DNA of 64,000 bases from Branchiostoma floridae. Taxonomy: Eukaryota > Chordata > Leptocardii > Amphioxiformes > Branchiostomatidae. The DNA lies in contig NC_049992.1 of the NCBI RefSeq assembly GCF_000003815.2, positions 16,126,019-16,190,018 of the forward strand. The letters are read 5' to 3'. The notes beneath the pieces are model-generated. The model had not been told where the DNA came from, made no database searches, and saw only the letters and a program-made list of their open reading frames with translations. Each line of letters opens with the position of its first letter. Positions within the stretch are counted from its first letter, which is position 1. Position numbers and translations under genes: made by a program. This document shows positions 1,529 to 48,600 of this stretch, piece by piece.

Positions 1529-3094
1529 GTATCATGGAAGTTTACCTCCCAGCCTTCAATTTTCATCTTGACCACTTGCTAGATTTTTACCATAGAATAT
1601 CCATGGACCAAGGAAATACATGTAAGTTGGTGAAATGCACAGAAGGCTGGATTAACTTGTCTCTATTGTAATCACTACATAAACCTTTTCTGACCAGTTT
1701 TCTCATCTTTTTTTGTTCGAATAGTTCAGAAGTAATCCAAGTCAGATACTCTACAATGAGTTTCACTTGTCTTAATCTAGAAAACATTTTCTCTTTTTTT
1801 AGTCGGTGATATCAAGGATGTCTTATGTAATGTCCTTGGTAATTTGTAACATGTAGACAGTCAAAGGTGTGTTTAAAAGAAATCATGATACATCCAAAAT
1901 GATTACACAGTCATAAAATTAAGTAAAATCTAATATTTCCACTAGACTTTGCAATAATAATCAATTTGTCTTTGTCCCTACTCTGAAAGAGTGAGTTAAA
2001 TGGAAATCATGCTGTTCAAGTAACATTTTACTCAGAACTGTAACATTTTCCATGCATTTAGTTACCATATCAGCACCACACTTATGATAAGAGCTTTAGC
2101 AGTAAACCGTTGGTGTCTATTCAATTTGCTTTTATAATAAGAATGGATGAATAACAAGGAATTAAGGTTCTTTATTCACCACCAGAATCTGTATACAAAT
2201 GACAGTTTACAATACTGACTGGTACACTGCTGTTGTGTGGATTGCATATAGATCCTGGTTGTAAAAAAAATACACATACCTTGTTCTCCAGTGATTTTCC
2301 AACCTAATGACATCATTTACGGACATACACACTGAATGATGTATTATGTGGTAAAGAATTGCACTGTTTAAATGGAACCTGGAAGACATATATATGAGAA
2401 ATTAATCATTCTTTATTCCACTGATGTGTGGTATATCCAAAATATACATCAAAAAAGTGTGATTACCGCTATTACTGTGATGACCTGAAGTCTCATTCCC
2501 CTCTCAATCCACTATTTGTTAATGTGCATTGCAGCATAAATAAAAGGATAAAGCATTTAATGCTCTTTTGTTGTCTTTGTGTGAGATACGGTTACAGTTA
2601 GTCTGAATTCAAGCTATGGCAGAAGTTGAATGAACATATCACAATGTAAAATTTGGGGTAAGTCCCAATCGAACTTGGTGTTGGTTACGTAAAGTTTAGT
2701 CTTTTCCACAATATCACAATGTAGGGGACATCCATTGCTGTTCCACATACTTGTTTCAAAAGAGCAAATGTATGATTAGACCAGTTCTTTGACAATAAAT
2801 TAGGTTGTTAGGGTGATACTTCAATGTGAAGAACAACAGTAGAAACAACCTAACATCCCATTTTGTTTCCCAAGTTGCAAAATGGCTAAATCTAGGAATG
2901 AGAGGCACTTTCAGAACAGGAAAACGGGGTGACATGTAGTGGTCTTCCGTCTATCATGTTAAGTCTATTTGGCACATGGACAGTGGCACAAATTAATATA
3001 AATTCTCTATCCACATAACACAAAAATGTCCCTTGTGTTAAAGTTGGCATAACCTTATTTTATCCAGTATGTATTCTAGTAACATGTCTTTGAT
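1529..3094. other. AT-rich intergenic stretch between convergent genes
   Basis: I recognise no gene here. It lies between the 3' ends of the aldo/keto reductase (+) and B3GALT6 (-), so it should hold both 3' UTRs. TTTATT (AATAAA on the minus strand) at about 2412-2417 could be a poly(A) signal for the B3GALT6 transcript. Confidence 0.5.
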
Positions 3095-4950: not shown

Positions 4951-5228
4951 AATTAAGTGTTCGCCAACTCGTAAAACCGTTCTCAACAGAATTTTTTGAC
5001 CGAATCGCTCGGTCCTCTTCAGTTATCCAACCCAACTACTCTGGACATAAGACTTACCATTAGGTCTTAAGTTGCTGTAAGGGCAGTTTTACTTGTTGGG
5101 TTCTGCGGGTAGAATCAGGAGAAACTTGGTCAAGGGTGAAGTTTCTTTCAAAGAGCGACCTTTTTTCTGTGTTTGAGCAGAACAATCTCCTGTTTCTTAA
5201 CTTACTTTGAATGGTAATAAACTAGACC

Positions 5229-5301
5229 AAGGAGGTTATATTGAATGTAACCTACTTGACTAAACCAAGGAGGTTATACTACTAGTAGTTAAAACCTCCT
5301 T
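5229..5301. repeat. Two tandem ultra-short palindromic insertions with 9-bp flanking repeats
   Basis: Imperfect hairpins at 5229-5257 and 5267-5301 both open with AAGGAGGTTATA. The second closes with AACCTCCTT; the first ends AACCTACTT. Before, between and after them stand three related 9-mers: AACTAGACC (5220-5228), GACTAAACC (5258-5266) and GAATAGACC (5302-5310), with 7/9 matches between neighbours. The layout looks like two serial insertions, each duplicating 9 bp. Related hairpins occur at 36461, 36549 and 45555. Confidence 0.7.
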
Positions 5302-6194
5302 GAATAGACCATGTGGCTTTCTGATGGACATGCATTTTTAAATGTATTTTAACCTGCTTTCCAGTGGGGAGTCTGATATCTGCCCAGCCACAGTGCACGG
5401 GGAGGTGGGGTTTACCCAAGAAAAATGTCGGAAAAACATCGGCGCCTGCCTGTGGGAATATGATGGTTTTTTGTCGGAATTTACGGTGATCCGTCTTGCC
5501 CTTTGGATTTTCGTAGGAAAACCGTATTCCAATGTCGATTTTCCAATGATATAACGGCACTTATCCGATGGACTTTTAACTTCCGACATTAATCTGATGG
5601 CCTTCCGACGACAGTTAATGGTTTCATGTCGGGTTTTTTTTCCTACAGAGTTCCGATGCAGGTCACCTAGACAACAAGTTAACAAACGTGGCAGATGGGA
5701 TTTCCCCGCTTGGATGTGGCCATGGCAACGCCACTGAGAGACGAATAGCTTCTTTATTGGTTACCATGGCTACTGAATGATTGACATCCGTGATCGTCGC
5801 GATTTGTTTTGTTTTCTCAGCTGTGGCGTTAAGAATATGAATAATTAAAGAAAAAAGGTAACTTCAGACGATCACTTTGAACCCAGAAAATGTGGTTTCG
5901 ACCCCTTGATGCGACATTATTTTTTAATGTTTTCCCGAAGGGCAAAACACATTGGTTTGACCAAGGAGCTTGTTTTGACTCCACTTTTGTTGGGGTAGAC
6001 AAACAAAACAAAGCTGGACAGCTCCTCAAAAGGTATATAGGGTAGGCCCGAAGGCTTCCCCTAGCAGAATGGCGATCCAGGCGACCAAGCCAAGATAGAG
6101 CAAACATCACACTTCAGATTAACTTCATCAGCGTGAATAACTGCTAACACTATGCGCTACCCCAGGTGATGTGGAACAATAATTCACGCAAGCA

Positions 6195-27600: not shown

Positions 27601-30600
27601 TGGATCATATCTCAACGGTTGCCTGGAAGAGAAGTAGGTACTGATATTACTACATTTGTTGACTACTTACACAAAATGTGTTAATGTGTTGGAAAAAATA
27701 CCATTGCTTTCTCAAAAGCTCTTACACATTACAACAATTAACAACATCCCAGTTACTACTCAAAACCTTTTATGTACTGCCAGAAAGTCTGCTAAAGGTA
27801 GGATACAAAAAAAACTGATGAATAATATAAAATCATTCAATAAATACTTAAGTCTTTTAAACCAAGATGACTTACATGTCACTCACTCACTCAATATCTG
27901 GTTTAATGTCTGTTGTTTCCCATCCCTTGGGGGTTAGACGTCAAAGTTCTTTATAGTTTAAACGAGCTACTTACTTGATGAATTGTCTCCATTCCTCCAC
28001 AAAGACTTTGCTAACTATGTAAAACTCTTGAGCTTGCTGTAACAAGAAATAGATAAAGGTTTTTGATAGACTCTCTAACAAGAACGACATGTGAAAGAGT
28101 TGAACAGTTGAAAATTTGGGCAAGTCAAGTTAATCCAAATTTTCTTCATACGTGACTGATGAACCTCTTCAATGATATGGGTAAGTCAAATATTTTATTG
28201 AAATGACAGCAGGGCTCGAAATTCATTTTTGGGATTAGGTGCACTGGTGCACCCAGATTAAAAAATTGGGTGCACCAAAAAAATTTGGGTGCAGCACTTG
28301 AATTTAAGTAGAATGTCAGAAAAACATTATAACAAAACTTAGTTACATGCTATCAAATTCTTAAGCAAGTACCATGATAGACATTTTTATTATCTTTCTA
28401 ACACTTAGATGTCAAGAATATGATGTATACTAGTATACTTTGATATCTTTACATACATACACCCAAGCAAATATTTGGGTGCAACCTGTGCACCCACAGA
28501 AAATAATTGGGTGCACAGCTCCAATTCTGGGTGCACCTGGGTGCACATGCACCCAGTACTTCGAGCTCTGGACAGTTAAACTTTGCTTCAGAATACAATA
28601 ATTCCTGTTGTATCTTCCTACCTTCTTGTCCCAGGCAGGTCTGTTCTTGTCCTGGTACAGTTGGAGCAGAGCAGCCTTCTGTTCTGCAGCCATCAGCTTA
28701 TGGAGCTCCTCTCTCTGCTCACCTTCTTTGTCCTTCAGCTGGAGAAACACATGAAGGTTCACCTTAACATCTAACTTTAAGGTATATCCTCAGTGTCTCA
28801 ATCTGACAGGTAGCCGAGAGCTGCTACAAAAGACACAATCTGAAGGAGATTCTTCGACGATAACCAAATTTTCACACATTCTCCTTTTATTTTTGTTGGA
28901 ACTGATTAATGTGATTAGATGTGATTAATTGCTTTATACAACAATTAAAAAAAAAATGATATTGCAGAAGAAACATACATGCACAGGGAGGGTGGTGGTG
29001 GGGTTTGGGGTTGGTGCAGAAGCTTTTGTGGCTTCCCCCCAAACACAGAAACTAGTCAAAAGGTTTAAATTGCACTTGTCAAAACTATACAAAACTTACA
29101 AAAGTGATTAGAAACAAGGCCATGAAAACCATCACACTTCAGATTCCTCACTTATTTCATATAGGACTACAACTATGGAAATATTGTAGATATACCTTTA
29201 TCTGTTGCAGTGCAGTTACATCCTTACAACATCAAATTGTGCACAGCACAATACAGTTATTCAATGAGTCAGACTTTCTTGTTTGGTATGTCCATGAAGG
29301 TTAGAAATCTAGGTAATACAATACACAATTTAAAAGTTCTTGTATCCTCTGAATAGATCTTGTAGAAGGTCAGATGTTTCAGATAACAGGCTATTATGTT
29401 TCATCAGTGACTTTTCTGTTTTGAAGAAAGACCAGTCTTACAAGACAGGCCTGGCAGACACTCTGGCTGCCCCTGAACCCGGGTACGTTGGTGAAGTAGG
29501 CCTGGAGTCTCCTCCACACGGCTTCAGACACCAGTCTGCGACAACTCTCATCCGGTAGGAGGTTGCCTGAAAAATACAAGAGTCAATTTTAGTACAATGC
29601 TTAACTTTTTTCCACCACGAAAGTAAACACGGATCAAATTTTTAACGACCACTGTCGCCTTCTTCAGGATCAATAGTGATGACCAATCACTTCAAAATGT
29701 AAACTCACTAGAGTTACGGACACGTGATCTTATTAACACGTGATCTCGCGGATACGTGTCGTCAGCAATTGGTCAAACGTGCCAGGAAGTTTATAACACC
29801 CATCGTCTCTCTTCAGTGATGGCTGGAGTCCATACCTCTTATAAAGTGGTCCAGTTCAGTGACAAGTATTCTCACTCATTTGATCCGAGTGTAGTGTTAG
29901 AAGAAAGTTTAGAATAGTAATATGACTACTACAAAAACAGATAAGCTTCGTGATAAAGAGTCAATTTTGTTAACCCTTGTCCTACCAATGTCTACTACAA
30001 CCAACACAATTCTTATGCATAGATGAGTGCCTGAGGGAAAAGGAACTTACCGTGATCACAGATGATGTCCTCATTAAAAATTGTGATGTCATCATCTCCA
30101 TTCTCCATGCTGCCATGGTTACTGCCTTGGGAGGACTTCGTACCTGCAAAATATCAAAATTAATACTGTAAAACTGCTGTTCTTTTTTAAAAGGTCAAAG
30201 AAAAGTCTCAACATCTGACAAAAACATATTGCTCCAGACCCCATTACACCCACATGACTGACCGTTACCTATTATTTTTCATTATTCATAAAGTATCCAA
30301 GTATCCATCTCTTTACATATCAGAAGAAATGAAAGCTTTAGTTTTTATGTCTCACACAAGTAACTGAAATATTAAAACACATCATGCAGAAAGTCACTAA
30401 AAATAAAAGTAATAGCGTCTACAAAAGTATTGACAGCTATACATCACAGACTTTAAACTACCGGACACATAGGAGAATTCTTTTACACAACCAGCAGTTA
30501 CTTACATTGCTTACGTTTCAATGTCTCTCAGACACCTTTGTCAGAGCTCCTAACTGAAGTTCTTCTTCTCACCGCTATATGTAGCCGATGTTAGAAGCTC

Positions 30601-33600
30601 TGACGGAGGTGAGACATTGAAATGTAAGCAATGTAAGTACCTACTGGTTGTGTAAAAAGAATTCTCCTATATCCTATTTTCTATCGACCTGATGAAACTA
30701 TTTTCGGCTTAAAACTACCGTTTCTCAGTGAAGGTATAAAACAAAGCCTGTACCTTGTGAGGATGTGGGTTCACTCCCGTCTGCCTGTGTGCCATTCTCC
30801 CCGTTCCCCTGGCCCTGTGAGTCAGGTGCCAGTTTCTCCATGGCCAGTTGTCTCCACACTCTCAGGGAATCTTTCCCCACCCAGTATGCCTTGTTCCTGT
30901 ACAATCATTGATTGTACAAATTTACTATTGATATTTTGGCATGAACCCCACCTATTGTTAGACTACTCCATGTTTGATCATAGTGTAGTAACAGACTGTA
31001 CATATTCCTTAAGGTTACCCAGTATTTTGACAAATGTACTACATGTATTTGTCTTTCCTGACTGTTCCACTGCCCATGTACTGCATGTTAAGTTACACAT
31101 GTAATTCCTCCAGACACACCAGTATATGTTATCCCTCCATGTGCAATAGTACTCGACTGTACAAACACTAGTCTTAGTGGTTGACAAATGTACCATTGTT
31201 GTTGTTGTTTTTAATAAAAAAAATAAAAATTAAAAAATGCCTTGTTCCTGTTGCCGAAAACAGCTTAATCATCAATCTATCCCACCGAAATGCCTTTAAG
31301 TTAGGATTTCAATTTTGTCATTTTGTCAGTTTGCATTCCTCTTTCACCACAGGTAAATTGTTGTGGCAACGAAAAATTTGACAGGTGTCTCAACAAAGTT
31401 TATAGATAAAGAATGACAAATTCATGGTTAGTACCTTCCTTGCACTGGAACAAAGCTCAAACTTTTCAACAACGACTTTTATTCTTTCTTACTTTCTGTG
31501 TGTTTTGTTGTCTTTTCAAAACTACTTTTACATCTTGCACCATATCCTGATTGTGAAATAAAGGATCTTATGTCGTACCTGTGACGCGAAAACGTTTGAT
31601 ACGGGTGTTCCCTACTGGGCCGTACGCTTCTGTATCGCACAGGTTCGAAAGGCGTATCACACAGGCTTTCTTCAAGTAAATGGAACCATTTCGAGCGGGC
31701 CGAATACGGCTCGGTTGGCAATTCGAATACCTGATTCGGACGTTGGAACATTGCTGTTGCAACACTTTTGGTTCGAGGGCACCAAATTTGTTCAACTTCT
31801 GGCGCATTTTGCATCAAAACATGGGTTTTCTCAGGTGGGTATGACATAAATAAAATACAACACGGTGTATTCCGCATCACCCTCGGTCCCAGCCCTCCCG
31901 TCGGGCAATCCGACCCGCGGTCGGGCTGATACCTCGGGTGATACGGAATACACAGTGTTGTATTCTAGACATACAAATCTGCTTAATGATTGTCGTAGAA
32001 AGTAAAGAAAGGAAAGGGTGCCAAAAAGCAGTTACTCAAGCAACTGGATATGATTTTGGAAACGATCAGACGTCTCAGACAACCATCTGGTGTCTTTCGT
32101 CCGTGACACTGGAGAAATGTTGTTGGAGAGAGTTTGTATTTTTAATTTTTATATTTATTATCCTAGCTGTGAATTGATATGGAATAATAAGGAAAGGGGG
32201 TTACGAAAAATGTTGGAGTCTTTAAAAAAACTGACCTGTCCACCTTCTCCCTGTTGGCACTGGTGATGAACTTGTGGTCCTCTGCCACCCGAGCCTTGGC
32301 ATGTAACTGTGCACAGGTTTGTCTCACACACTCCCAACACAGGGACGCATCACTGTGGGTAAAACACAGTATTGTACCATACGCAGCACTAACAATGTGT
32401 CACACACTCCCAACACAGGGACGCATCACTGTGGGTAAAACACAGTATTGTACCATACGCAGCACTAACAATGTGTCACACACTCCCAACACAGGGACGC
32501 ATCACTGCAGGTAAAACACAGTGTTATACCATACGCAGCACTAACAATGACTCACACACTCCCAACACAGGGACGCGTCATTGTGGATAAAACACAGTAT
32601 CGTATCATACGCAGCACTAACAAAGACAAGCTGAATTGGCAGAGATTCATTTGATACTAACATCTGACAAGATGTCCAAGACCATGTTTGAAACCTAAAG
32701 CGAGTGTCTCACATGATTCCACCAAATTGCATGAGGCATTCATAGGCATAAACCTGCACGCTATTCAGTGCAGGGCTGTCTTCAGTATCTGTCCCTCCAT
32801 CCTGAGACGGAATTTTTTTTGTTGGTAAGGACAAGTTTCAAACCTTTTGTCCAAATAATCTAAATTTCATGACATGTTATTTTTTTTTGGCTTAGCATAA
32901 AATGTCAGATTCTACAACGAAAATAAACAACATGGGACTATGTGAGGTACAGAAAAAAATTTAAAGCTGTAGACAGCCCTGACCCAGTAAGATCCTTGCA
33001 TAAGCAGTCAACACTAAAATTACTCACTCTGACAAGTGTGGCCCTCCACCATACTTAGAATAAAGCATCTCAGCCTGTGAACAAAACATAACTTTACTGA
33101 CAATCCCTGAAGATAAAAGGTAGAAAGAAAGGATTTGACACATTAGGAAAGTACAGGTTTGATAACTGTTTAAAATATACTATCAGGGCTAAACCATCAT
33201 TTTATCTAGCAGTACTTTCTCTCGAAATATTTGTCAATATAGGGTTAGGATTTATATGAACAGTTTGACTATGAAATTAAAAAGTAGAGCAACTCACTGC
33301 TTGTTTGCTGATTCTCTTCATATCAGACACTTTGTGTGGGTCTGCCCTGAAGGTGAAACATGTTATATATAATATAGTTAAGATTAGAAAAAAAATTGGT
33401 TCAAGGTTTTAATCGTTAAACTGCCGCACCCGGATATATCCTGCACACATATGCATGTCCTGTGTGCCGCACCCGGATATATCCGGGATAGCGTATTCCC
33501 CCGAAGTAGCAACTTTGCGCACAAACCCCGGAAGTCAGGGACTTTGGCCTTGTTCGGGGGGTTCTTTTTGGAGGTCAGCAGCCAACCCTGGCACTGATAG

Positions 33601-36600
33601 CATTTTATAGTGCTGAAACTCTGGCAGTTTAAGGGTTAAGGCCTAAATACACAGAACACACACTCAAGAAAGTCACCGTCGAGCATCACACACCAGGCTC
33701 TGACTTGGAACTCACAGGACAAGCAAAAGAGGGGAATGCCCAAGAACAGCTGGAGAAGGGACACTGAGGAAGAGATGAGGAGCATAAGTAACAGCTGGCA
33801 CGACCTGAGAAGAAAGGACCAGAGATGTGTGCAGTGGAGGGCGATCATCGGTGGCCTATGTTCCGCCCAGAACAAAGGGCCCAACACAGAACCAGACAGC
33901 AAAATCCACACAACGAAACACAGAAAACACTTGTGGTATGTTAAAACTATGCGACCTACTAACTGACCTTCCATGAGTACATGTGAGTTTGGAGTTGTCC
34001 ACCCCGCGAGGGGCGTTGGATTCACTCAGCCACTCCCTCAGCCAATCTGTACTGATCCACTCATATGTTTCTCCTGGGAAGACGGAATGATTCTTGAGAG
34101 TCAATATAGAATATGACTGAAGGCAACACCTCAAGTAACACTAAATTGATTACCACAAAACTACAAAAAGACATCTAAGCATAAAGAACTAAAATATCTG
34201 TAATGCGAAGTACTGTCATTGCTTCCAATGCATGAGGCTGTTCTCATTTGATTTCAGTCATAAGTTCTCAATACCTACATTTTCTACAGTATCGAAGCCC
34301 ATACAGAAAAGTACTGTACTTTTTCTAGACTCTAAATGGAGACAGGTCCCTTCAGTTTAGACTGATAAAATGAACAGAAATCATACACATGTTCATCGTG
34401 GGAACTTACCCTCCTCAGCTGGCATGAGGTCACACAGTTCTGTAATCTCCTGATGCCTGGCCTTCCCTGATACTACACTCTGTTGCTGTAGTGAGAATAT
34501 AAAAAAAACAATGTTACACAGCCACATATACAGCACATAATGCCATTGACATTTGTTCAACTAAACACCACCAGTTGCTGACACTGGTGGGGCCTATAAT
34601 GTCGAAAAAATGTCTATCGGACAGAAGACCCTCCAAAGACATTCCAAAACGGGAGAACCCGAAGGAGACATTTTAAAAACTCAACTACATATTTTTAACC
34701 CGTGAAAGACATTTTGTTTACATCCTCTCTCAACACGTAAGGAAGGGACTCCCCTCGGAGACCATCCATTATTTAGAACAATTAGTACTCATTAAGTCGT
34801 TAGCGTCTTCCTGATAATTAATTGCTCCCCGCCCTCTGTGAAAGACAAGTACTTTTTGCTTTGTGCCTGCCCCCAAGCGCCCAGTGATGCCGTAATGCCG
34901 CGGCCCGCCGGACTGCCCGTCTCCGAACTGCCACGGCTAGAGATCGCGTAACCAATGCTAAATGCCGCGGTAAAACCCTTACCTGACAGTGTCCAGTAAC
35001 TTATGGTAAAAAAATCCTCGGTCAACTTTGATCGTCGTTGGGACAAGGTGAAGACTTACTTTGTCACTTGGTCAGGCATAAACATCGGATACCGTGACGT
35101 TAACAGTGAAAGTGACTTAACGTTACGTTTGATAGCTGTGAACTGTAAATTTCGTTATGAAAATATGAGTAGATTTTTGTTGATGTTACGTTACATTTTA
35201 TTGTTCACCAGGCTAACGAAACATTAATATTACGCCTGCCTGTCGACGTAAACAAATAAAAATCAACCGAAAACGCGGCAGATAAAACAGGGAAGTCCCG
35301 CTTGGACCACGCACGCAGCGCTGCGATTCATCATTTGTTTACCCTTCAGGACGGCTTGCTATGCAAATGACTTAGGCATGACGTCACCGCTCCGATTTTC
35401 CCCGACCCAATTGTCGGCAGTCCGAGGAAGAACCGATCTGCCTCAGATTTCCGACAATTCCCATATTTGGAAGTTGGAACACTCGGGAGGATTGTGCAGA
35501 CGTCATCTTCTCCTGCAGGACCGTGGGAAGCGGCAAGATCAACCGAACATGCCCCGCCTCCCTGTCAAAATTGATTTATGGGCCCGCGAAAGACCGGTCT
35601 GCGATCAAAAACCGGCGGGAAAACAGAGTGTGGTGAGGTTGAAAAAGGACCCGGGGCCTCCTTGAGTGAACGTTGTTGGTCTGATAAAAGCTCCTTGGTT
35701 AGAAATACCGTTTTAGCGACAAAGTGCCACACGAAATTACCCTTACAACATACTTAGATTTCAGCTCTTCTTTTGCTCTCGGTTTTAGCTGTACATGTGG
35801 AAAAAGATTTGGGCACAAGACGAACGATTTGCTATCTTTTCTACGTCCTCCTTTCTTATTAATCTGCGTGTTTCAACTCAGAAATGCTCCAGATAGGTTG
35901 AAACCATGCAGATGAAGTACTAGAATTAATGAGGTTATATGTTTATGTACTGTTTTATGTGTTAAAGTTGGAGACGCTAACAGCGCGCGCTGAGGAAAAC
36001 AAAGGCCGTTTGAAAGCAAAGTGTAGCGAGTTTATTGTGCATCACGTTTTCTTTTGTTATCGATAGCACTCATTGAATAACATATTTGAAAATACTACAT
36101 GTACTATGTTTTTGTATAACATCGTAATATACATTTGTGACGGAGTATTAACAGCTTTTATTAACGCTTTTATACATACAGGTGCGTAGAATAGAAGTGC
36201 ACAAGGAAGAATGCTGCAAGCCGACTTGTGTCTAGCCTCCGCCAGGCCCTTCCGACGTGGGTACGGGGATCGAGAAAAAAATCGGAAAGTTGGTCAGGGG
36301 AGTCAGTCCCCGCTAAGGATAATGGATTCCCCTCTGGAGCTGCGCGGCCGACCAACTCCTCTCGTAGCAAAACTCCCGGCCTGGCAAATTATTCTCCATG
36401 TAACAGCCAGCAGAGTTCTACCGAAGTTCTGCCGAAGTGTTTACGTCATTGAATTCTACCAAGGACGTGATATAACGTCCTTGGTTCTACAAGTACTTTG
36501 ATGGTCGGGGTAGTCCTAACACTACATTATGACCTTCTTGTTTTTACTAAGGACGTTATAATAACGTCATTGTTTTTACTAACACTGTTCTCCCTGTTCA

Positions 36601-39600
36601 TCGAATTGTTCCGTTCAATTGATATAATGAATGAATGTACAGGATGTTTGTTTTACCCTTTAGCAATAGTCAAATTAAATGCAAATCAGGGTGAAGTTTG
36701 TTCCCATTTGCGGCATGGCATTTACAAATATCTTGCTTTCCACTTGGAGGTATTCAGTCCAAAAACATTATGCCGAATTGCATTTCAAGAACGCGTGGTG
36801 TTTGTAATATATTTGTCAGTCGACTTCGCACTCTATATTACTTTTGAACCAATTTTTAATGCCATAGAAAATATCAAAGTTTCCGACTTTTTACTGGGGC
36901 CACTGTCAAGAGAGGGCCGGTGCACGCAGCTGGACTGGTACCCTCACGTCGTCAACGTAAACACCGTGATGATTGGCGTGGAACTGTGAACTGGATCATT
37001 TGTTTGGTTCTTCATGCTTATGCCTTGTACGTTTTGTTCATAACATTATGCACATATGGATTAGTTTTAGATTCCGTTTATTCCAATTCGAGATTGCAAC
37101 ATATTCCCAAGGAGCTTTTATCAGGCCTTGATATTCCTAATTCGGCTATTGTGGACTGTGAAAAGTAGTCGACGACTGGAGGCTGACGGCTGGGTGTACC
37201 AACTACTTTGAAATAATCACATAAATTCTGATGATTCAGAAAGTTTCCTATGTCAAGCCATACCCCAAAATCCGCAGTTTCCTTTTTCTGTTTTATCACA
37301 AACCTACCGTAGACCTGTAGTAGAATCGTTGTCCGATGCAGCTCAATCCAATAGGTGACTTACCTTAGTTCTTATAGATGTGTGTTGAAGAGTATCAAAA
37401 TCATCGTTCGTGATGGAAATTTTGTTGTGTTTTGTAAATATTTTCCAGATTTATCGATATGATATATGTTAGAGGTTAGTGTGTGTGTATATTAGATATG
37501 TATTGTTATTCAAACATCAAAACGCGTTCCCAAGTACACCTTGGGCTTGTAGTACGTACGTACGAACGTAACATGTGTTAGTAAGTTGTTAGCAAAAGGC
37601 AAGTCAAACAACCTCCCTGGTCGAATGGATTTACAAAAAAAAAAAACAGAACAAACACTAACAAACAGAACTTGACCAAAACAAAATGACAATCCTAGGG
37701 ATAACACCCAACGGTATGAATAGCTTTTCTCCAAACGTCGTACCTGAAAAACAAAATGAAACATACGAGTTACCAGATGCAACTAATGCTATTTATCAAT
37801 CTGGGGCCCTTTGCTAAAATATGGACTAAAATAATCAACTTGTGATACTGTAAAGATGTGTCTGTTCCAGGCGTTTTTGTAGACATGTTGTCTTATTCAA
37901 TCTCGGAGGGTGTGAAACAATGGATCTGGATTTGGCGTTTGTTCCACACTTGAAACATTTCTAGACGCAAATCTAGAGGCAGACAGAGGTGTGTATTGTA
38001 CTTGTAATCTTGGCCTTGTTTAATTAGATATTTGAGAATGAAAATAAGCACGCGATTTTTTCGACGTTTGGTTTTAAAATGTCGATATGATATCTAAATC
38101 TTCGTATTAACTGCAAGGTCATGTATAAACTGTCAAAAGTCTGTGAAATTGTCTTGTTGTGACATCCATCTTGGTTATTGTCATGCATAGTCACAACCGC
38201 GGGCCCCATTGTCTACAAGATGGAAATACGACGATGGTTGACTTTCCTCTTCTTCGGATCCCAAGCCAAAACAAGAAATCCGGTCAGACCAAAGGTCACT
38301 TTGACTTGAATTCGTAAATCATGGATCCGGAGCGAATATACAAATTTTTGTTCGATCGTAATTCGCATTAAGAGATATTAAAAAAAAAATAACACTTTTT
38401 CTTGGTTTCTGAACAGGTTTCGGACAAATCTACGAATTGTTTTCTTAGTTTTCAAACAGTTTTCTTACAAATTTACGATAGCGAATACGAGTAGTTCGTG
38501 CATCATTTAGAAGACAAATGACAATTCAGGCCTCTTTTCAACTTTCTTGCTACCACGGCGTACAGTGAAGAAAACTCGAAGGGTACCGGGAAAAAAAATC
38601 TCTGTTTTAGACGTACATCGTATATGGAAATGTTGCCCACCGATTGAAGTTCGTATTGAACAAAATACTAGTATTTTTTAAATGATCTGAATGAAGAGGC
38701 TGTTACATGTACCAAGTCCTTGCATGTACATAGATACTTTTCAAGATGGCGGCGGTGACGGTTGCGTCGATCGCACGCTCCAGCTGAAGCAAACTTTTTG
38801 CATCTTTACCTTAGATTTCATCCAGTATTTTGCTCTCTAGAACTTTCTAAACGTAGTTATATATATCTTGAGAGTTTTTAGCTACTCCAGACCTCGGGGG
38901 TAAGAGAAATACGCCGATACAAGTTTCGCGAAAAACCCAAGCCGAGTTGGAGACAGACATCATGGCGGACGACTTTGATCTCGGTGACCTTTATGCCACA
39001 CTTGGACTAACGCCGGCAGCCTCCCGAGAAGAAATCTTGGACGCGTACAAGAAAGAACTCATCGCATATGAATCAACAGCTAAGAACAGCCGAAAGACCA
39101 AGGTCTTCAAGGAGGTAGGCAAAGCCTTTTCTGTCCTCTCAGACGCGTCACGTAGGAAACAGTACGATGACAGCAACATTATCCCGGACACCCCAAAGAC
39201 CAGAAGTAGAAGAAAATCACTCAAACATGCTGAAGAGTACCAAGTAATTGAAAACCGGCAGAGTATCACGGTTTACTTCCCCAGGAACACTGCCAAGTCT
39301 TGGCTCGACTCGTGTGAAGAGTACTATGGCACTCAAGCTGTAAACGACGGAGATCAAGGCTATCAAATCAAAACTTCCCATGTTGATCCCAAAACTGGTC
39401 TCCCCGTCGGCTCTGTAAGCATCAAAATCTTCGAAACAACACAGAAAATGCTGATACAGGGGTCTGCATACCTACTATGGTATTCGGAAGTATTCCCGGA
39501 GCTCAAAAAGAAACTTAGCCAAACTCAAAACAACCATGGCTCTGCCAATGTCCAACAAGCGTCGGTAGGAGTGGAACACGTCTCCACGTCCGTAACGCCA

Positions 39601-42600
39601 AGTTCAACTGATATTCCCCTATTATGTTCATCCTGTGACCAGCCTGTGATGTCTGAAGTTTGTAACACATGTACCACTGTACCCAAGGTTTTGTTTGATG
39701 TAAATAGTAACGAAACACATGAAGACACTCAGAGCGTTGTACTTGATGACGACAGAAATGAAACGGGTGAAAATGTCAATGGCAATGATGAGATCAAGAA
39801 GGATCCGTGTAGTTTGACTGACTTGTCTGTCTTACAAGACAGTATGAACAAATTAGAAGCCTGTCTTGCAAACTCTATTTCGGACAGAAAATTATTCGAA
39901 GACTTTGTGGCACAAAGAATGAACACAATAGAAAGTAAGATGAAAACCCAGGTGTGTATTGAAGTTCCTTCTACTGACAAAAAGCAACTTCAGGATGAAA
40001 TCGCGCAGCTGACTGAAGCAAAGTGTGAACTTCAAAACCAGCTCGATTCACTCCAGCTGAAGTACGATGAGCTAGCTCTCGCTGTCGGCATGTTACAAAC
40101 GACCGCTCCTCTTAAAACAACAGAAACTCAGACCACAGACGAGTCATCAGAACGTGCTGAAAAGTTACTCCGTGAGGTAGCTACAATTAGCACCCAAAAC
40201 AGATTCCAGGTGCTGGCAGATAACAATGGCGTGTCTGGCAAGGAAGCGCGTACCGACATTTCAAACAGAAGCGCGAAACGTCGTGACCACGGTGCCAAGC
40301 CTACAACAAAGCAGACCTCCTGTGTGGACAAAGTCAACACCAATCAACACAACAAAACAGCTGAGACAAATCAACAACACAGAGAACTACCACCAGACGT
40401 ATTAATCCTAGGGGACTCAAACACAAAAGGTATCAAAACGGACCTCTTGTGCCCAAACAAATGTGCGAAAAGTGATGTGACGTACAACATAACACAAGCG
40501 ACAGAATACGTGGAACAAACAACGTTGCCGGACCCTCATGTGATTTTGTTCCATCTTGGCACGAACGATGCGCGAGATACGCGGGACGCAACATCAGTCT
40601 CCGAGCGCTTCCGTAAATTGGTACACATAACGCACGAGAAGTACCCCCGCACACAAATCGTCCTGTCTTCCATTCTGCCCAGAGATGACCCTGACCTCCA
40701 ACAAGTAGGAGATAACGTCAACTCCTTTCTAAGGGTCATCTCTGAGGAAACCAAGTATGTACATCTGATTGATAATAGTAATCTGTCAGATATGGGACTG
40801 ATCAAGCGTCGACTCTACAGCCATGACGGGTACCATCTGAACAGATTTGGGATACGAGTACTGGCGGCCAATATCAAAAGAGTAATCAACCCGTTGATAG
40901 GACTGGGACAATACACTAACAGAGGCGCTAGGCTCAATCAATCGCCTACACACAACCAAAGCCCCGACGCCGTATCCCCCGGGATCTCCACAACGCACGG
41001 TCAGGGACAAAGGCCACACCCCATCGCTACATACGAGCGAGACTTCCCAAGGCTCAACCAAACGCTCGTAAATGGTCCATCAGTTACGAGAAACTATTCT
41101 GACGCTCTAAGACAAGGACAATCATCAAGTGCACCCCAGGCCACCGGGGCACCTGCTGCATCGAGACCCACACCCCTTTCAGGACCTCTACAGAGTGCAA
41201 GTCAAGGCCAGTCCTCGCGTGGAAGTGTTAACGCGACCTTCGAACGTTTTGCACCGGCGGCTCAAGAATCTCCCCCGCCTGTGCGTCCGTTCTTCCGACC
41301 GAATCAGCCTTCAGGACCCTGGAGAAGCCCCCCTCCCCCGTTCAACCTGCCTCCTTCACCGTGGGGATTCCTGCCGCCAAACGTCCAAGTACCCGGCCCA
41401 CATTCACGGATGAACTCTCCTCCTTGGCCTTGGCACCCTGCCATGATGTGGCCACCAATGGTTACCAATAACATGTGGTAGGAACTTTCTAGTGATATTC
41501 TTGGCCTTTTTCAATTAGTAACGAAAATTCGGGGCTATCATTACTATGTCTACCAAATTGTGCCCATCAATTGTCTCAGCTACAGTATCATAGAATAGTT
41601 TTATCATGTACATATAGTTGATATGCACTGTATTTTACCTAGTGTTTAGTACGATTATTATACATAATTCACCGTATATATGAGTATATATAAAGTAACG
41701 GAGTTTTATCATTGGTTCAGCTTAACATTTTAGCTATGACATTTTAGATCTTGTCACTCTCATGAGTTAAAGTATTTTGATGATTAAGGTAAAGACGCAA
41801 TTCTCTTGAAAATCTCATTGATGAAAATGTTCAATGGCGGAAGCAAATGCTTCGCCGCCTGGAATGTTCACGGTCTAGGTTCTAAATTAGAGGATGTAGA
41901 GTTTTTAGACGAAATTCGCAAATTCGACTTCTTTTCGTTACTTGAAACATGGAGCACTCAAAACACAAAAATCAACATCGCTAACTATAGTTATTTTCAT
42001 CTATTCAGAACAAAAAGCAAACGAGCGAAACGCTCATCAGGGGGAATTATATTTTTCTATAAAAACAAATTCAAAAATCATGTCAAAAAAGTACCTTCTA
42101 AGTCGACTGATGCCCTCTGGGTAAAGATAGACCGTAACGTCTTAGGACTTACGAAAGATCTTTTCATATGTTCAGTTTACCTAAGCCCAAGCGCTTCTTC
42201 TACTCATAAAAATGCCGATAACCATATATTAGACATACTAGAAGAGGAAATAAGTAGATATAGTTCAGAGGGGTTCGTCTTATTAGGGGGAGATCTAAAT
42301 GCGCGTATTGGTAACCTACGTGATTACGTGGATAGCGAAATTAACATCGACGGTTTTCCCGCCAGCTCCTCGAACCAAGTTAGTGATAGGCAATATATGG
42401 ATAAGTCACCTCCAAACAAGTTTGGCCGGCTTTTGAGTGAGCTTTGCATACAAGCAGACCTCAGAATATTAAATGGCAGGGTGGCTGGGGACCTGCAAGG
42501 TAACTATACCTGTCACCAACCAAACGGTAGTAGCACGGTCGACTACATAATTTCCAGCCAATCGTTTCTGCAAAACATTTTATTATTTCAAATTCATCCG

Positions 42601-45600
42601 CTAACTGTCTTTTCAGATCACTGCCTGATATCAGTCTTCATTAAATCAAACACAGACCATCAAAACCAGCATGAAAAACAACAAAAGCGTAAAAGAAATC
42701 CCGCTCCAAAACGATTTCATTGGGATGATAAATCTGCACAGAAATTCAACCACATCCTTTCTCAATCTCATTTTATCGATAGACTGAATTCACTCTCATC
42801 ACAAAATACGAAGGACACAAAATCTAATGGAGAAATAGAAGCCTTTGTTTCTGAATTTAGTTCAATCCTGAGAGACGTTGGTTTCAAATCCCTATCAGTA
42901 CAGATAACTAAACATAAGAAACACCCGCAGCTACGACAAAATAAACAATGGTTTGACAAGAGTTGTAACGAACTAAAACGTGAAATAAAGAACCTAGCAT
43001 ATTTACTATCCAAACAACCATTTAATTCCGACATAAGGGGAAGATATTTCAAAAGAAAGAAAGAATTTAAAAAACTGATAAAAAAAGAAGAAAACAGACT
43101 TTCACAAACAAATCATGACCCAATTGTCTTCCCTCAAAGACAAAAATCCAGGCGCCTTTTGGAACTTAGTTAATAAGCTAAAACCGACGAAAACGCAAGA
43201 AAATAACCAAATCTCAGAAGAAGAGTGGTTTGAACATTTTAGCAATTTAGACAAACTCCCTAATAATGGTACAAACGACTCTCCAATTCCGGAAAACGAT
43301 CAACTAAATCCGTCGTCCTCCGCTACTAATCCATCTGTTCTAGATTCCCCTATAACTTCAGAAGAATTATATAATGCCATTTCAAACCTCAAGAACAATA
43401 AATCGAGTGGAAATGATTTGATCTTAAATGAAATGTTGAAATTTGGTAAATCGGTACTTCAAACGCCACTCCTGCAACTTTTTAACAATTGTCTGCAAAA
43501 CGGGTATTACCCACAGGAGTGGTCCCTTAGCCACATTGTTCCAATTCACAAATCCGGCGACCCATCTCTCCCAGACAACTACCGCGGAATTTCCATAATT
43601 AGCTGCTTAGGTAAACTATTCTCCTCTATATTAAAAAATCGCTTAGTTAGTTATGCCGAAAACAATAGTCTTTTCAAACCCCACCAGGCAGGGTTTAGGA
43701 AGAACTTTAGAACTACAGATAATCTTTTCGTGTTAAGTACATTAGTTAGCAAGTATCTAAGTAAAAATTCCCGTCTCTTTGCATGTTTCGTAGATTTTAG
43801 TAAAGCGTTCGACTCCGTCTGGAGAAATGGCCTCCTTTACAAATTAAACAAGTTAGGTATACAGGGCAACTTTCTTCGAACTATCAAAGACATGTATTCA
43901 AAAACTACAAATCGTGTGAAATACAGTCAAGGTCTGACTGAACCTTTTGTCACAAACTGTGGTGTCAGACAGGGTTGTAATTTAAGCCCAACTTTATTCA
44001 ATTTATTTTTAAGTGATATTACATCTGTCTTTGATAATGATATTTGTAACCCTCCAACGATGTACAGTAAGCGTGTCTCTTGTCTATTGTATGCAGATGA
44101 TTTAGTTCTTTTCTCTGAATCCAAACAAGGTCTACAATGTTCTTTGAATAGACTAGAAGAATACTGTCAAACATGGCACCTAAATGTGAACCTTAGGAAA
44201 ACAAAAATAATTGTTTTCACTAAGGGTGGTCGTATACCAAAAGATGTGTATTTCATGTATAAGAACAATCCTGTTGAAATAGTGACAAACTATTGTTATT
44301 TAGGTATTGTTGTCAATTCTGCGGGTACTTTCAAGGCGAACAACAAACACTTGTACAGTAAGGGTCTGAAAGCTTTATTCGGGATAAATCAATCCCTAGA
44401 CAAAGCCGATGCTCCTTTGTCTGTCAGAAACAAACTTTTTGATACATGTGTTAAGCCCATAATTCTCTATGGATCGGAAATCTGGGGTTCTGTTAAAAGC
44501 CCCAAATCCTGTCCTATTGAAACAATACATCTAAAATTCTGTAAGCAAACCCTACACGTGCCAAGATCCACAAGTGGCCTCGCCGCTAGAGCCGAGTTAG
44601 GGAGGTTCCCCATTCATTTGGAAGCCTCCCTAAATGCTATTAAACACTTAATTAGACTTCGCCAGAAAGTACCAGCAGACAGTTTCCAGTCAGACGCTCT
44701 TTCTTGCCAGATAGATTTAGACAAGGCTGGAGCCAAGTGTTGGGCGTCAGGAGTTCGCCAATCACTGGAGGAATGCGGCTATGGTTATGTATGGCATTGT
44801 CCTCTACAGCACAATACAAATTCGTCTCAAATTATCAATTCTATCAATCAGCGTCTGAAAGACATTTATTTTCAAACTTTTCTAAGAGAGATACACAATG
44901 ACAACAAAGGTGGATCCGCTAAAAACAAATTGAGGTCTTACAGACTGTTCAAGTCCACTTATAATGTGGAACAATACCTGGATATTGACAATATTCGGCA
45001 CAGGACGGCCGTCACAAAACTACGAGTCAGTTGCCACAAATTACACATCGAAACCGGAAGACATAACCGCACTCCTCTAGAACAACGAATATGTAGATAC
45101 TGCAATCTAGATAAGTTAGAAGACGAACACCATTTTGTAGTAGAATGTAGTTTGTACAAGAAAGAGAGAGCTGAACTCTACAGACTAATAGAATCCATGT
45201 TCCCCCACTTCATACAACTAAGTAATATAGACAAATTTATATTCCTTATGAATCTAGACAAACCTTTACTTATAAAGCATATCTGTTCTTACATTTTCAA
45301 TATCACAAAGAAACGAGAAGAAGCCGAATGTACGCAGTAGAATACGATCCTTGAGTAGTGTAGATTCATTGTATCATTATATCATGTTGTATCATTTGTT
45401 GTGACCTGTACTAAACCCAGTGGGTATGAATGTACAATAAAGGTCTTCATTCATTCATAGATACTTCAGTCACTGAGCCAGGCACGGGAGACAATGATGA
45501 ATGTCGAAAAGTATTTGCACAACAAAGAAGGTCAAAGCAGTCCTTGGTCTTATCAAGGAGGTTATATTCAATGAATATAACCTCCTTGGTCTTATCAAAA

Positions 45601-48600
45601 CAAGTTGCTTTGTTTTTGTCTTCCTATGCATGACACTGGTTAGAACATGTTTGCGAATTAGCGCTAGAAGACCCTAGAAGAAGGTCGTGAAGATTGCATG
45701 CCCCACGACTCTGACCGTTGGAAATGGTTCTAACATACCGGCAACGGGAATTGTCTAGCCCCCACCAAGCCTTCATATGGGGGTACCGGGATTGTAGAAT
45801 TTGGCAAAAAACAACAACGGGAAACTGGCCTGGGGCCTGAGTCAGTCCACGCAAATGTTAATGATATGTTTCCCCTCTACACGGCCGGCCACTCCTCTGA
45901 TAACAACTCTCATAGAAACGCTAAAAAAAAAACTTAGCACGGACGCCACTAGAACGTGAGATGGGTGATATTAGCCCTTGAAATATTTTTTTTAAATCCT
46001 ATAAATTGCCAATCAAACATAAGACGTTTATATTTTTCAGAAACGTGAAATTAATACGTTGATAATAATTACGTGGAGAATTTTTAAACAGATACACAAT
46101 GTTTTTCTTTATCGCATTACTCAATTTACTGATATTTCTGGCGCTAGCGCACGTGAGGTAGACTCAAGCCCGCTGCCAATCACGTCCTAGCAACCGCCGG
46201 TCCTATAGCAACCATCTCCGCTTTTCCCGCCTTTGTGTCGATCGGCGTGTCTGATGTTGTTTCAGAAGTGACGGCGAAAAGGTCCTCAGCAAGAATATTA
46301 ACCTGATTTTATTTTCAACGGTGATATTATGCGTGAGAACTTGAATATGAGTAACTTAGTCTTCGATTTGATTAAAAGCAATGTTTTTTTTTTGCCTGAC
46401 TGTACGTAACACTTGTTGTCCACGCCTGAGAGCGGCGCGGCTTTGTCCACGCCGTATGAGTGCCGTGCGGCGCTGGACTGACGAGGAAAAGTAGTTTGTC
46501 AACTTGACTGTTGAATGTCATATATTGTACCAAAATAAAGAGAAGAGACAAGATATTTGAAAGACATTCTTGTAACATTCAAAATACATTCAAAGGACTG
46601 TCACATTGTCATGCCGTGGGACGGTGTCAAACAGCCTGACGACATAACGCCCGGGTGAGTGGGACGCAGATAATGAGCTTTATTTCCAACGGCAAATACG
46701 GACAATATATTTCGGGAACACGGTAGATTTAATAGTTACTTGTACAGATATTTTACGGAAATGCAAAAAAAAGGACAGCCGCTCGGAGTATCACTCAACT
46801 TCGACGCCTAGGCAAGGCATGGCATGGCATGCAGGAAACGATCACCTGCGGATATTTTTGCATGACAACTCAGCAATCAGCGCTNNNNNNNNNNNNNNNN
46901 NNNNNNNNNNNNNNNNNNNNNNNNNNNNNNNNNNNNNNNNNNNNNNNNNNNNNNNNNNNNNNNNNNNNNNNNNNNNNNNNNNNNTTGGAAAGACATTCTT
47001 GTAACATTCAAAATGAAACTGAAAAGGACAGTCACATTGTCGCATGTGGCATCAAAGGGCGAACATGGCATAACGTCTGGAGAGTGGGATTTTACCAAAT
47101 ACTTTGTAAGTCCAGTTTATAGTTTGGAAGTTTGTGTAACGCTCCGTTGCCTGCCGTGGCGGTCATTTTACACGGCCTAGTGGCTTCAGATCACGCACAT
47201 GTTTAATAGGAAGGTGAAATGAGGACAGATCGCTCGGTGCCGTGTAGGGACACCGATCGCAAAGGAACGTCTCTCGCGGTGCGCGGTCACCAGCTAATAA
47301 ATTGCCGCCCCTCCATTTTGACTGGGCCAGTCAGTCAGGCGGGCCGCTCGAAGCGTATTCAGGCTACTAACGGGGGCGTGATTTTCGTTAACATGCGAGT
47401 TTTCACAGTTTTTCTCCAGACATTTGGAAGACATTTTTCTGAACAATGGAAAAAACAACACACACGCCCTCCCAAAAAGACCCTGTAAAGACATTCTCGA
47501 ACCCCAGAAAATACATTCTTGGAAAATGTCTCGAAAATATCCGGAAAAATCAGAATGTCTTTGGAGGGTTTTCTGTCCGATTGACATTATTTCGACATTA
47601 TCGGGCCCACCAGTGTGATCGGCTGCTTTTAACATCTACTAGCCACCATCAATGACAAAAGAATTATGGCACTGTTTTTATAACAAATTTGATGATGACC
47701 ATGGAAATGTCTTTCTCCTGGGTATTATGGGTTTGTAAGATTGTCAAACAGGTGATTGTAAAATGTTGTAAATCTCACAAGCCCCCTCCCACCAAGCCAA
47801 GTCTTGCCTCACCCACAACCACCACATTAAGTAATATATATACAGTTGTGTAATAGATAATACATACTCTCATGTCCTTCATCTCCCTGACCCACTCCTC
47901 AAACTTCTGGTTGTCCCTGTGGACCATCTGCATCAGCCTGTCAGGAATGGCTGTTTCCACAGGCAGGGGGTCACCTATAACCTCACCTGGAACCATACAA
48001 AAGTCAGGCAAACTGAGTCACTCTATCTTCTAACAACACATGTATTGAAGTGGTACACAGAAACTAGGAAACACCTAAATAACAAACGAAGATACCAATG
48101 ACATGCAGCAGATAGAGCCAAACAATCTCTGAAAATGTACACTGATTGACTGAAACTGTATTTTGGAATATTGGAAATGTTTTCTGAATATCTTAAACTG
48201 TGCCCTATCTTGAACTGTATTTTTGTGTAGTACTATGTCCTTGTCTATACTATACTGAGTGAGGTAGTAGTAGCAGTAGTGGTGGTGGTGGTGGTTGTAG
48301 CGGTACATGTACATACATCTGTACCAAAGATAAACAAACATATAGACTTAAATTTAAATACACAGTCTTCACATTCAACAGCAAGTCACAAAAAGGTGAA
48401 GAAAATTGGTGCCATAAAAACACCCAAATTAAACTGAACTCTGGTAACATTTTCAGTTTCCTTACCTTCTGGCATCCTCCTGTTATACACCAACATGTAG
48501 GCATTTCTGGAGGCATGACTTCCTTTCTGCAGTTTGGGCTTCTTAGGTTGCTTCTGGCCTCCCTCTGGGTACATAGTATAAAAGCCTTTATTTCAAAACT

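Follow-up and report, generated by a model that had tools for sequence, protein, structure and literature searches.

Tiny palindromes between 7-bp duplications in the amphioxus genome: probable excision footprints of P-superfamily DNA transposons

The stretch of DNA analyzed here (the window: 64,000 nt of Branchiostoma floridae contig NC_049992.1, positions 16,126,019 to 16,190,018 of the forward strand, assembly GCF_000003815.2) contains several tiny palindromic insertions, each lying between short direct repeats; we consider it very probable that they are donor-site scars, the footprints left behind by the excision of P-superfamily DNA transposons. An initial annotation of the window had reported five such palindromes between 9-bp repeats. 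All five were observed at the reported places (5228-5258, 5266-5302, 36460-36483, 36548-36572 and 45554-45588), and the count was incomplete, as a clear copy at 37108-37130 with a 7/7 duplication had been missed. The inserts run CAAGG...CCTTG, with C as the first base and G as the last, and the duplication is 7 bp long, so that the proposed length was two bases too great. The perfect 9/9 repeats scored at 36549 and 45555 arose because the insert's outermost bases happen to recur beside the heptamer, and the 6/9 repeat scored at 36461 becomes 6/7 at 36460 when rescored with 7 bp. In the following, handles beginning with L denote loci and those beginning with C denote contigs.

None of the scars in the window is assigned a strand. 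The 35-bp scar at 45554..45588 reads CAAGGAGGTTATATTCA-A-TGAATATAACCTCCTTG, that is, 17 nt per end plus 1 nt, and is flanked by GTCTTAT at both 45547..45553 and 45589..45595. Its arms are identical to the terminal repeat of a 1.6-kb element family described below, and a copy of identical sequence (L064) was parsed in its place. This copy, at C7:7053544-7053654, corresponds to window positions 45516-45626 and carries the same scar with flanks identical over the 38 bp read on each side; the two stand on different chromosomes, and a later duplication probably carried the scar along. Two further scars, at 5228..5258 (31 bp) and 5266..5302 (37 bp, with a different centre), form a tandem pair in which the middle heptamer is common to both (ACTAGAC at 5221..5227, ACTAAAC at 5259..5265 and AATAGAC at 5303..5309, all at most one base from ACTAGAC), and the pair at 5221-5309 may reflect two rounds of insertion and excision into one heptamer. 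Arms of the CAAGGACGT type were found in the scars at 36460..36483 (24 bp; ATTCTAC at 36453..36459 and GTTCTAC at 36484..36490, a 6/7 match) and 36548..36572 (25 bp; TTTTTAC at 36541..36547 and at 36573..36579, 7/7); this end type is known here from short copies. The 23-bp scar at 37108..37130, flanked by ATATTCC at 37101..37107 and 37131..37137 (7/7), is asymmetric and non-palindromic (CAAGGAGCTTTTATCAG-GCCTTG), and its long left stub CAAGGAGCTTTTATCAG is the exact end, within the terminal repeat, of an 8.4-kb P-type element on C19. A probable but weak decayed candidate lies at 1813..1838, between GTGATAT and GTAATTT (5/7).

The window was also scanned without preset arms, for 9-bp direct repeats enclosing 16-80 bp of sequence whose ends are inverted copies of each other. 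At one mismatch or less, three matches were obtained, compared to 0-1 in each of six Markov shuffles; two of them, at 36540 and 45546, are palindromes already described, and the third, at 55709, is an unrelated palindromic tandem repeat. With two mismatches allowed, there were 12 matches against 0-2 in the shuffles. A scan for CAAGG/CCTTG inserts between exact repeats, covering the window and 20 randomly placed loci (200 kb in total), yielded six at 7 bp, the copy at 37108-37130 among them, one at 5 bp and none at 6, 8 or 9 bp. Shuffled pentamers served as controls, and 26 of 28 gave no match; the matches of the other two, ACAGG (3) and GACAG (31), look like a tandem satellite of L008. In the unselected 200 kb, with an arm list partly taken from copies already found, 16 arm-like candidates were counted, eight of which, in 4 of the 20 loci, had a duplication within one mismatch. 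Five of these eight duplication-supported scars, together with one compound copy, fall within the 10 kb of a single locus (L015, C4:720395-730394), far above the other 19 random loci. A rough extrapolation thus gives some 8,000 scars in the genome when L015 is left out and 20,000 when it is kept.

To define the duplication, the genome (513 Mb in 431 contigs) was searched with arm patterns. A first pattern with a fixed 8-nt centre gave eight copies and a wider one, with a 0-20-nt centre, gave 115; the reversed-pattern control gave none. Fifty-seven exact-arm copies were read with their flanks: 55 were fetched from the genome, out of the matches listed, which made up the initial portion of the 115, and to these were added the window copy and another from L015. 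After removal of two as repeats of another locus, 55 non-redundant copies remained, referred to below as the first family; as perfect 12-bp arms were required, this set is biased to young copies. An exact duplication of 7 bp was seen in 40 of the 55 and one of 8 bp in two, while lengths of 5, 6, 9 and 10 bp were not seen at all; allowing up to one mismatch raised the 7-bp figure to 44/55. When left and right flanks of different copies were cross-paired as a null, exact matches occurred in only 2 of 2970 pairs. The genome-wide excess of flanking repeats on which the initial annotation had staked its case is therefore strong for exact-arm copies, at 7 bp and not at 9. That the palindromes are due to chance or to an error of assembly has nothing beyond their short length in its favor; backward-read control patterns gave no match, against 115 here and 333 and 3 for two further arm types described below, and the shuffled pentamers gave none apart from the two satellite-like cases. 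We regard such an origin as barely conceivable.

The target preference deduced from the 40 reconstructed sites is palindromic, TnnGTnWnACnnA (T at -3 and A at +3). This motif resembles the target of the Drosophila P element; it also resembles hAT targets, and CAAGG fits the YARNG rule of hAT termini. The ends and the motif raised the possibility that the short copies are footprints or mini-derivatives of a hAT-type element. Duplications of 7 bp are also produced by hAT7 of Puccinia and by Kyakuja, the latter ending in 5'-CA..TG-3', although both are fungal and have different transposases (PMC12730594). Only one usable paralogous empty site was found: beside the scar of L002, the paralogue is insert-free and shows the heptamer once, in a form 6/7 identical and next to a 2-nt indel. 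Candidates at L020, L056 and L067 gave no clear empty site.

In the commonest short copies, the centre (TATATTCTGAATATA) had the appearance of two TATATTCAGAAGG... ends fused at a 3-nt repeat. From these centres a longer parent end was first guessed, TTCAGAAGG or a close variant, and later found by a pattern search, which returned inverted pairs 0.7-3.3 kb apart; a mismatch-tolerant search added more. Nine long copies of 0.7-6.7 kb were read at both ends (L076-L082, L083+L084, and L085), and all nine stand between exact duplications, of 7 bp except for the 8 bp of L082. Outside these nine are L086 and L087, of which a single end was seen, and L088, with its duplication unread. The ends are CAAGGAGGTTATATTCAGAAGG, L085 being a diverged variant and the C19 copy one base off at one end, and inverted repeats of 28-31 bp are present in seven copies. 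Most long copies measure about 1.57-1.6 kb and their aligned pieces are about 92-99% identical (about 83-88% for L077); one of 731 bp is an internal deletion. The longest open reading frame (ORF) of L077, an insert-free copy, has at most 87 amino acids, and L076 and L083 have none above 155 amino acids other than frames crossing an N run. Two larger copies were tried as autonomous members of the family and rejected: the 3.3-kb copy on C18, which contains an N run and extra sequence, and the 6.7-kb copy on C19 (C19:14606212-14612883, L083+L084), which contains about 5 kb of other sequence and a 478-amino-acid ORF without Pfam match.

A genome search with PF21787, the N-terminal half of the P-element RNase H, revealed three loci among 10 scored candidates. 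Two of them sit inside full elements; for the third (L091), element ends were not found within the 6 kb read. The C19 element has 8442 bp, a 31-bp inverted repeat starting from CAAGGAGCTTTTATCAGG and CTCTAAC as an exact 7-bp duplication to its left and right; in the C11 element, of 8684 bp, the inverted repeat starts from CAAGGAGGTTGAATAAGGG and has 38 bp, and the exact 7-bp duplication is AAGTCAT. Both show the same domain order, PF21787 (E 9e-22 and 7e-21), PF21788, the GTP-binding insertion (2e-5 and 6e-4, the latter, from the C11 copy, falling short of the curated cut-off), and PF21789, RNase H-C (3e-8 and 3e-7), and are thus predicted to encode a P-type transposase, its RNase H split by the GTP-binding insertion. 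Comparison of the ORFs gives 46% identity between the two predicted proteins, in an alignment that takes in a low-complexity stretch of L090 from another frame. A second, convergent ORF of about 350 amino acids lies on the opposite strand in both elements (L089:7274-8362, minus strand; L090:43-1098, plus strand); the two are 54% identical and have no Pfam match at E 0.05. The longer elements with such termini and a transposase, for which the initial annotation had advised a search, thus exist, as the nine copies of the 1.6-kb family and the C19 and C11 elements with their P-type transposase. Over 183 bp, L082 matches the C11 element at 69%, the aligned part (positions 243-423) being equally far from the end in both, and a 62-bp alignment to the C19 element reaches 73%; on this ground we take the 1.6-kb family to be a non-autonomous relative. 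As candidate subterminal inverted repeats, L082 has a single pair of 14-nt segments with 86% complementarity, lying some 85 bp from one end and 131 bp from the other.

With the P superfamily and THAP9 (Drosophila P, zebrafish Pdre2), the amphioxus elements share the RNase H with its GTP-binding insertion and, in the broad sense of the superfamily, terminal repeats starting with CA (PMC7776569, PMC10983969). An inverted repeat of about 31 bp, as in Drosophila P, is present in two of the three end types, the palindromic target preference is of the kind seen in the superfamily, and internally deleted, non-autonomous relatives are likewise a common trait. They differ in the duplication, of 7 bp rather than 8 bp in both large elements as in the 40 scars, and in length (about 8.5 kb and not 2.9 kb), and also in the second convergent ORF, in a RAG1-like N-terminal domain and in the lack of a detected THAP domain, no match to which was obtained in the ORFs scanned, where a separate upstream exon could escape. 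Since both large elements with such ends code for a P-type transposase with a GTP-binding insertion, the hAT origin raised above was dropped, no genome-wide search for hAT elements having been made, and there is hardly any chance of its being right. We also know of no hAT excision that leaves 13-18 nt of each end.

The C19 type of arm was found on both sides of 333 short matches genome-wide, and the C11 type in three exact copies, with no match for either control. Fifty of the C19-type copies, those among the matches listed, were taken for junction analysis and 49 were parsed, one compound copy being omitted. In 28 of these the insert consists purely of two end stubs with a 0-2-nt overlap. The longest stub per copy measures 14-19 nt and is no longer than 18 nt on either side in 46/49, where the search pattern could have admitted all 31 bp of the C19 repeat on one side. 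In the first family, 30 of 55 copies parse fully into three end types (T1-T3) with 0-3 nt of overlap, and lengths peak at 31-34 bp. Across the short copies, stubs are mostly 13-18 nt long and are joined by 0-3 nt of microhomology or by filler. The centres are diverse, with 33 distinct ones among the 55 first-family copies and 26 among the 49 of C19 type, and in one scar (L015:6972-7019) two C11-type stubs flank an 11-nt filler (TTGAATATATT) similar to a neighboring repeat.

These junctions recall those of the Drosophila P element, whose transposase cuts one strand at the 3' edge of the element and the other at a point 17 bp into the 31-bp repeat (PMC7776569; also PMC10983969). In spn-A mutant flies, excision junctions include ones that retain the 8-bp duplication and up to 17 nt per end, with templated filler or a short microhomology at the join (PMC2895639, Table 1). 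The footprints of P{wa} described there have the duplication on both sides, at most 17 nt of each 31-bp repeat, and joins made by a 2-3-nt microhomology or templated filler, and the commonest short-microhomology product (14 isolates) is a 30-bp palindrome. Unlike the amphioxus scars, they stem from a laboratory transposon with an 8-bp duplication and include a second large class of long-microhomology joins; the scars reported here have 7 bp and other end sequences, and stand on natural chromosomes as hundreds of exact-arm matches with more decayed ones besides. The order of duplication, partial ends and duplication, with end-joining junctions, is the same in both. The short copies match the Drosophila junctions in anatomy, stub length and junction type, and elements bearing such ends contain a P-type gene; being composed of two stubs with microhomology or filler, the short copies are best read as excision scars. 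Of the two origins proposed in the initial annotation, deletion products of a 9-bp-duplicating transposon came close: the short copies are most likely fused stubs of terminal repeats left by a transposon, except that it duplicates 7 bp.

The 7-bp duplication, the stub lengths, the junction types and the existence of full P-transposase elements with ends of this kind are direct observations; we infer the excision itself, the exact position of the cut and the repair pathway, and would propose the following course of events. A P-type element with CAAGG... inverted terminal repeats would insert and duplicate 7 bp. On its departure, the transposase would cut one strand at the edge of the element and the other about 17 nt inside the repeat, so that some 17 nt of the repeat would stay, single-stranded, on each broken chromosome end. 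These tails, being inverted copies of each other, could then be fused by alternative end joining through 0-3 nt of microhomology or a short, sometimes templated, filler. The product would be a duplication, a stub, an inverted stub and a duplication, the insert forming a near-palindrome of 21-48 bp.

An additional scenario is that the short copies arose by internal deletion during gap repair after excision, or by slow trimming of a palindrome, and not by direct joining of cut ends. One copy of 44 bp (L033) appears on reading to retain about 15 nt from some 21-35 nt inside the right end, a 103-bp copy on C9 retains right-end sequence, and the 731-bp copy mentioned above is an internal deletion. 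Such processes predict broad and asymmetric end lengths; in contrast, the observed stubs are concentrated at 13-18 nt, left and right alike. Intermediates are few, with 115 matches having a centre of 0-20 nt against 19 forward matches with a centre of 22-82 nt, several of them compound, and the 276 kb scanned contained no element of 76-8000 bp that combined such ends with an exact duplication, although elements at locus edges would escape. We therefore judge this scenario very unlikely.

The other origin proposed in the initial annotation was that the palindromes are whole mobile elements reduced to fused repeats. In the form considered here, these would be hairpins of 21-48 bp moved in trans by the P-type transposase, with a 7-bp duplication made at each landing. 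The kind of end and the 7-bp duplication are indeed common to short copies and full elements, the short copies are more numerous than the long ones found, and the two scars with different centres on one heptamer at 5221-5309 would suit such units; the empty site at L002 is equally compatible with them. Moreover, the same centre recurs at unlinked sites in 12 of 55 and 10 of 49 copies, an observation which tells against excision in so far as amplification of a mini-element could also yield it. The recurrent centres, however, lie at the microhomologies GA, GAA and G, like the AT junction of the 14 Drosophila isolates (PMC2895639), and the P transposase also binds internal sites beside the 31-bp repeats (PMC7776569), for which the short units have no room. 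The diversity of centres resembles that of repair junctions, the filler resembles end-joining products, and the asymmetric copy at 37108-37130 is not a palindrome at all; this copy and the compound ones are more readily accounted for by end joining than by a hairpin that moves on its own. Given these repair-like centres (26 distinct in 49 for the C19 type) and stubs that end near the P cut, self-moving units are not supported, and we consider them improbable.

Several further observations weigh against the reading of the short copies as excision scars. No exact duplication at any length tried (5-10 bp) was found in 13 of the 55 exact-arm copies, although in one of these (L001) an exact 7-bp pair does flank a 50-bp compound copy. 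The 333 C19-type matches were counted by their arms alone, with flanking duplications unread. Bases outside the two known ends are present in 21/49 C19-type copies, and 25/55 T1-type copies carry bases that two known ends do not explain; of the three end types of the first family, only T1 is anchored in long elements, T2 and T3 having been deduced from the short copies themselves. The three C11-type copies appear on reading to retain about 20-21 nt on one side, and T1-type copies with 20+20 and 21+21 nt occur, suggesting that the cut is not strictly at 17. Because the exact-arm searches require 13 nt or more on each side (15 nt or more for the C11 type), the stub statistics are floored and shorter stubs hidden. 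In Drosophila, 20 junctions with long microhomology have lost nearly all of both stubs and one copy or more of the duplication (PMC2895639), and this class would escape searches based on arms. Finally, an autonomous partner of the 1.6-kb family was not found.

The scars resemble miniature inverted-repeat transposable elements (MITEs) in being short and abundant, with inverted ends and target duplications, but there is no evidence of short units inserted as such, and the internal sequence differs between most copies. An exact arm search of viral contigs gave no match. In the literature, no relevant paper was listed for the arm sequence itself, no transposon paper was among the matches listed for small MITEs, and no paper was found to combine a 7-bp target site, hAT and MITE, or P element excision, '17 nucleotides' and donor site.

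Both transposase regions show, in their N-terminal part, a match to PF12560 (RAG1_imp_bd), with E 7e-8 (32.8 bits) and 7e-10 (39.3 bits) at a cut-off of 23.3. The RAG1-like domain is located at L089:2292-4595 and at L090:5748-6509, in the latter within a separate, overlapping ORF. In a sequence search of the L089 protein against solved structures, RAG1 was the best match and not significant (E 0.22). Transib transposons are without the N-terminal region of RAG1. N-RAG-TP of Aplysia, on the other hand, is a transposon made of sequence like the N-terminal part of RAG1 (PMC8355894). It is similar to the amphioxus elements in that a transposon-encoded protein resembles this part; in amphioxus, the RAG1-like part stands in the same ORF as the P-type RNase H transposase (L089) or in an adjoining ORF that overlaps it (L090). 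A link between P-type elements and the RAG1 N-terminus appeared in no title or opening of an abstract among the matches listed.

A number of other features were also observed. A non-LTR (long terminal repeat) retrotransposon occupies window positions 38872-45340 on the plus strand; its ORF1, of 869 amino acids, combines a GDSL lipase domain with a DnaJ domain (PF00226, E 2e-11), and its ORF2 region has an endonuclease and a reverse transcriptase. A DnaJ domain in the ORF1 of such an element seems, to our knowledge, unusual. An element of 4257 bp at L007:1713-5969, which we take to be hAT-like by its ends (TAGGGCTGGGTACCGG), has an exact 8-bp duplication, GTCATGCC. The window also contains a 111-bp near-palindrome at 31854-31964 (AATACAACACGGTGTATTCCG...) and, at 55697-55828, a tandem repeat with a 37-bp unit that is a palindrome in its own right (AGGCTATTGACACAC...); inverted units of TGGGTGCACC build repeats at window 28245-28518 and at L017:9049.

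What appears to be new or unusual is the occurrence of natural scars en masse, a P-type family that duplicates 7 bp, and the combination of its transposase with a RAG1-like N-terminus. The scars far exceed the coding elements, with about 450 exact-arm short matches (115 + 333 + 3, including some overlapping members of compound copies) against three PF21787 loci. A broader proposal, which we put forward tentatively and with more doubt than conviction, is that the parents of the scars are P-type transposons with a RAG1-like (importin-binding, cysteine-rich) N-terminus, a second convergent gene and 7-bp duplications, that they may represent a source or a sister of the N-terminal region of RAG1, and that they have left thousands of readable P-excision junctions. 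The RAG1-like N-terminus of the transposase has a bearing on the origin of that part of RAG1. If the excision reading is true, an abundant class of tiny palindromes would be a fossil record of past excisions and not the smallest of mobile elements, and germline end joining, with its microhomologies and fillers, could be read from assembled DNA with no experiment.

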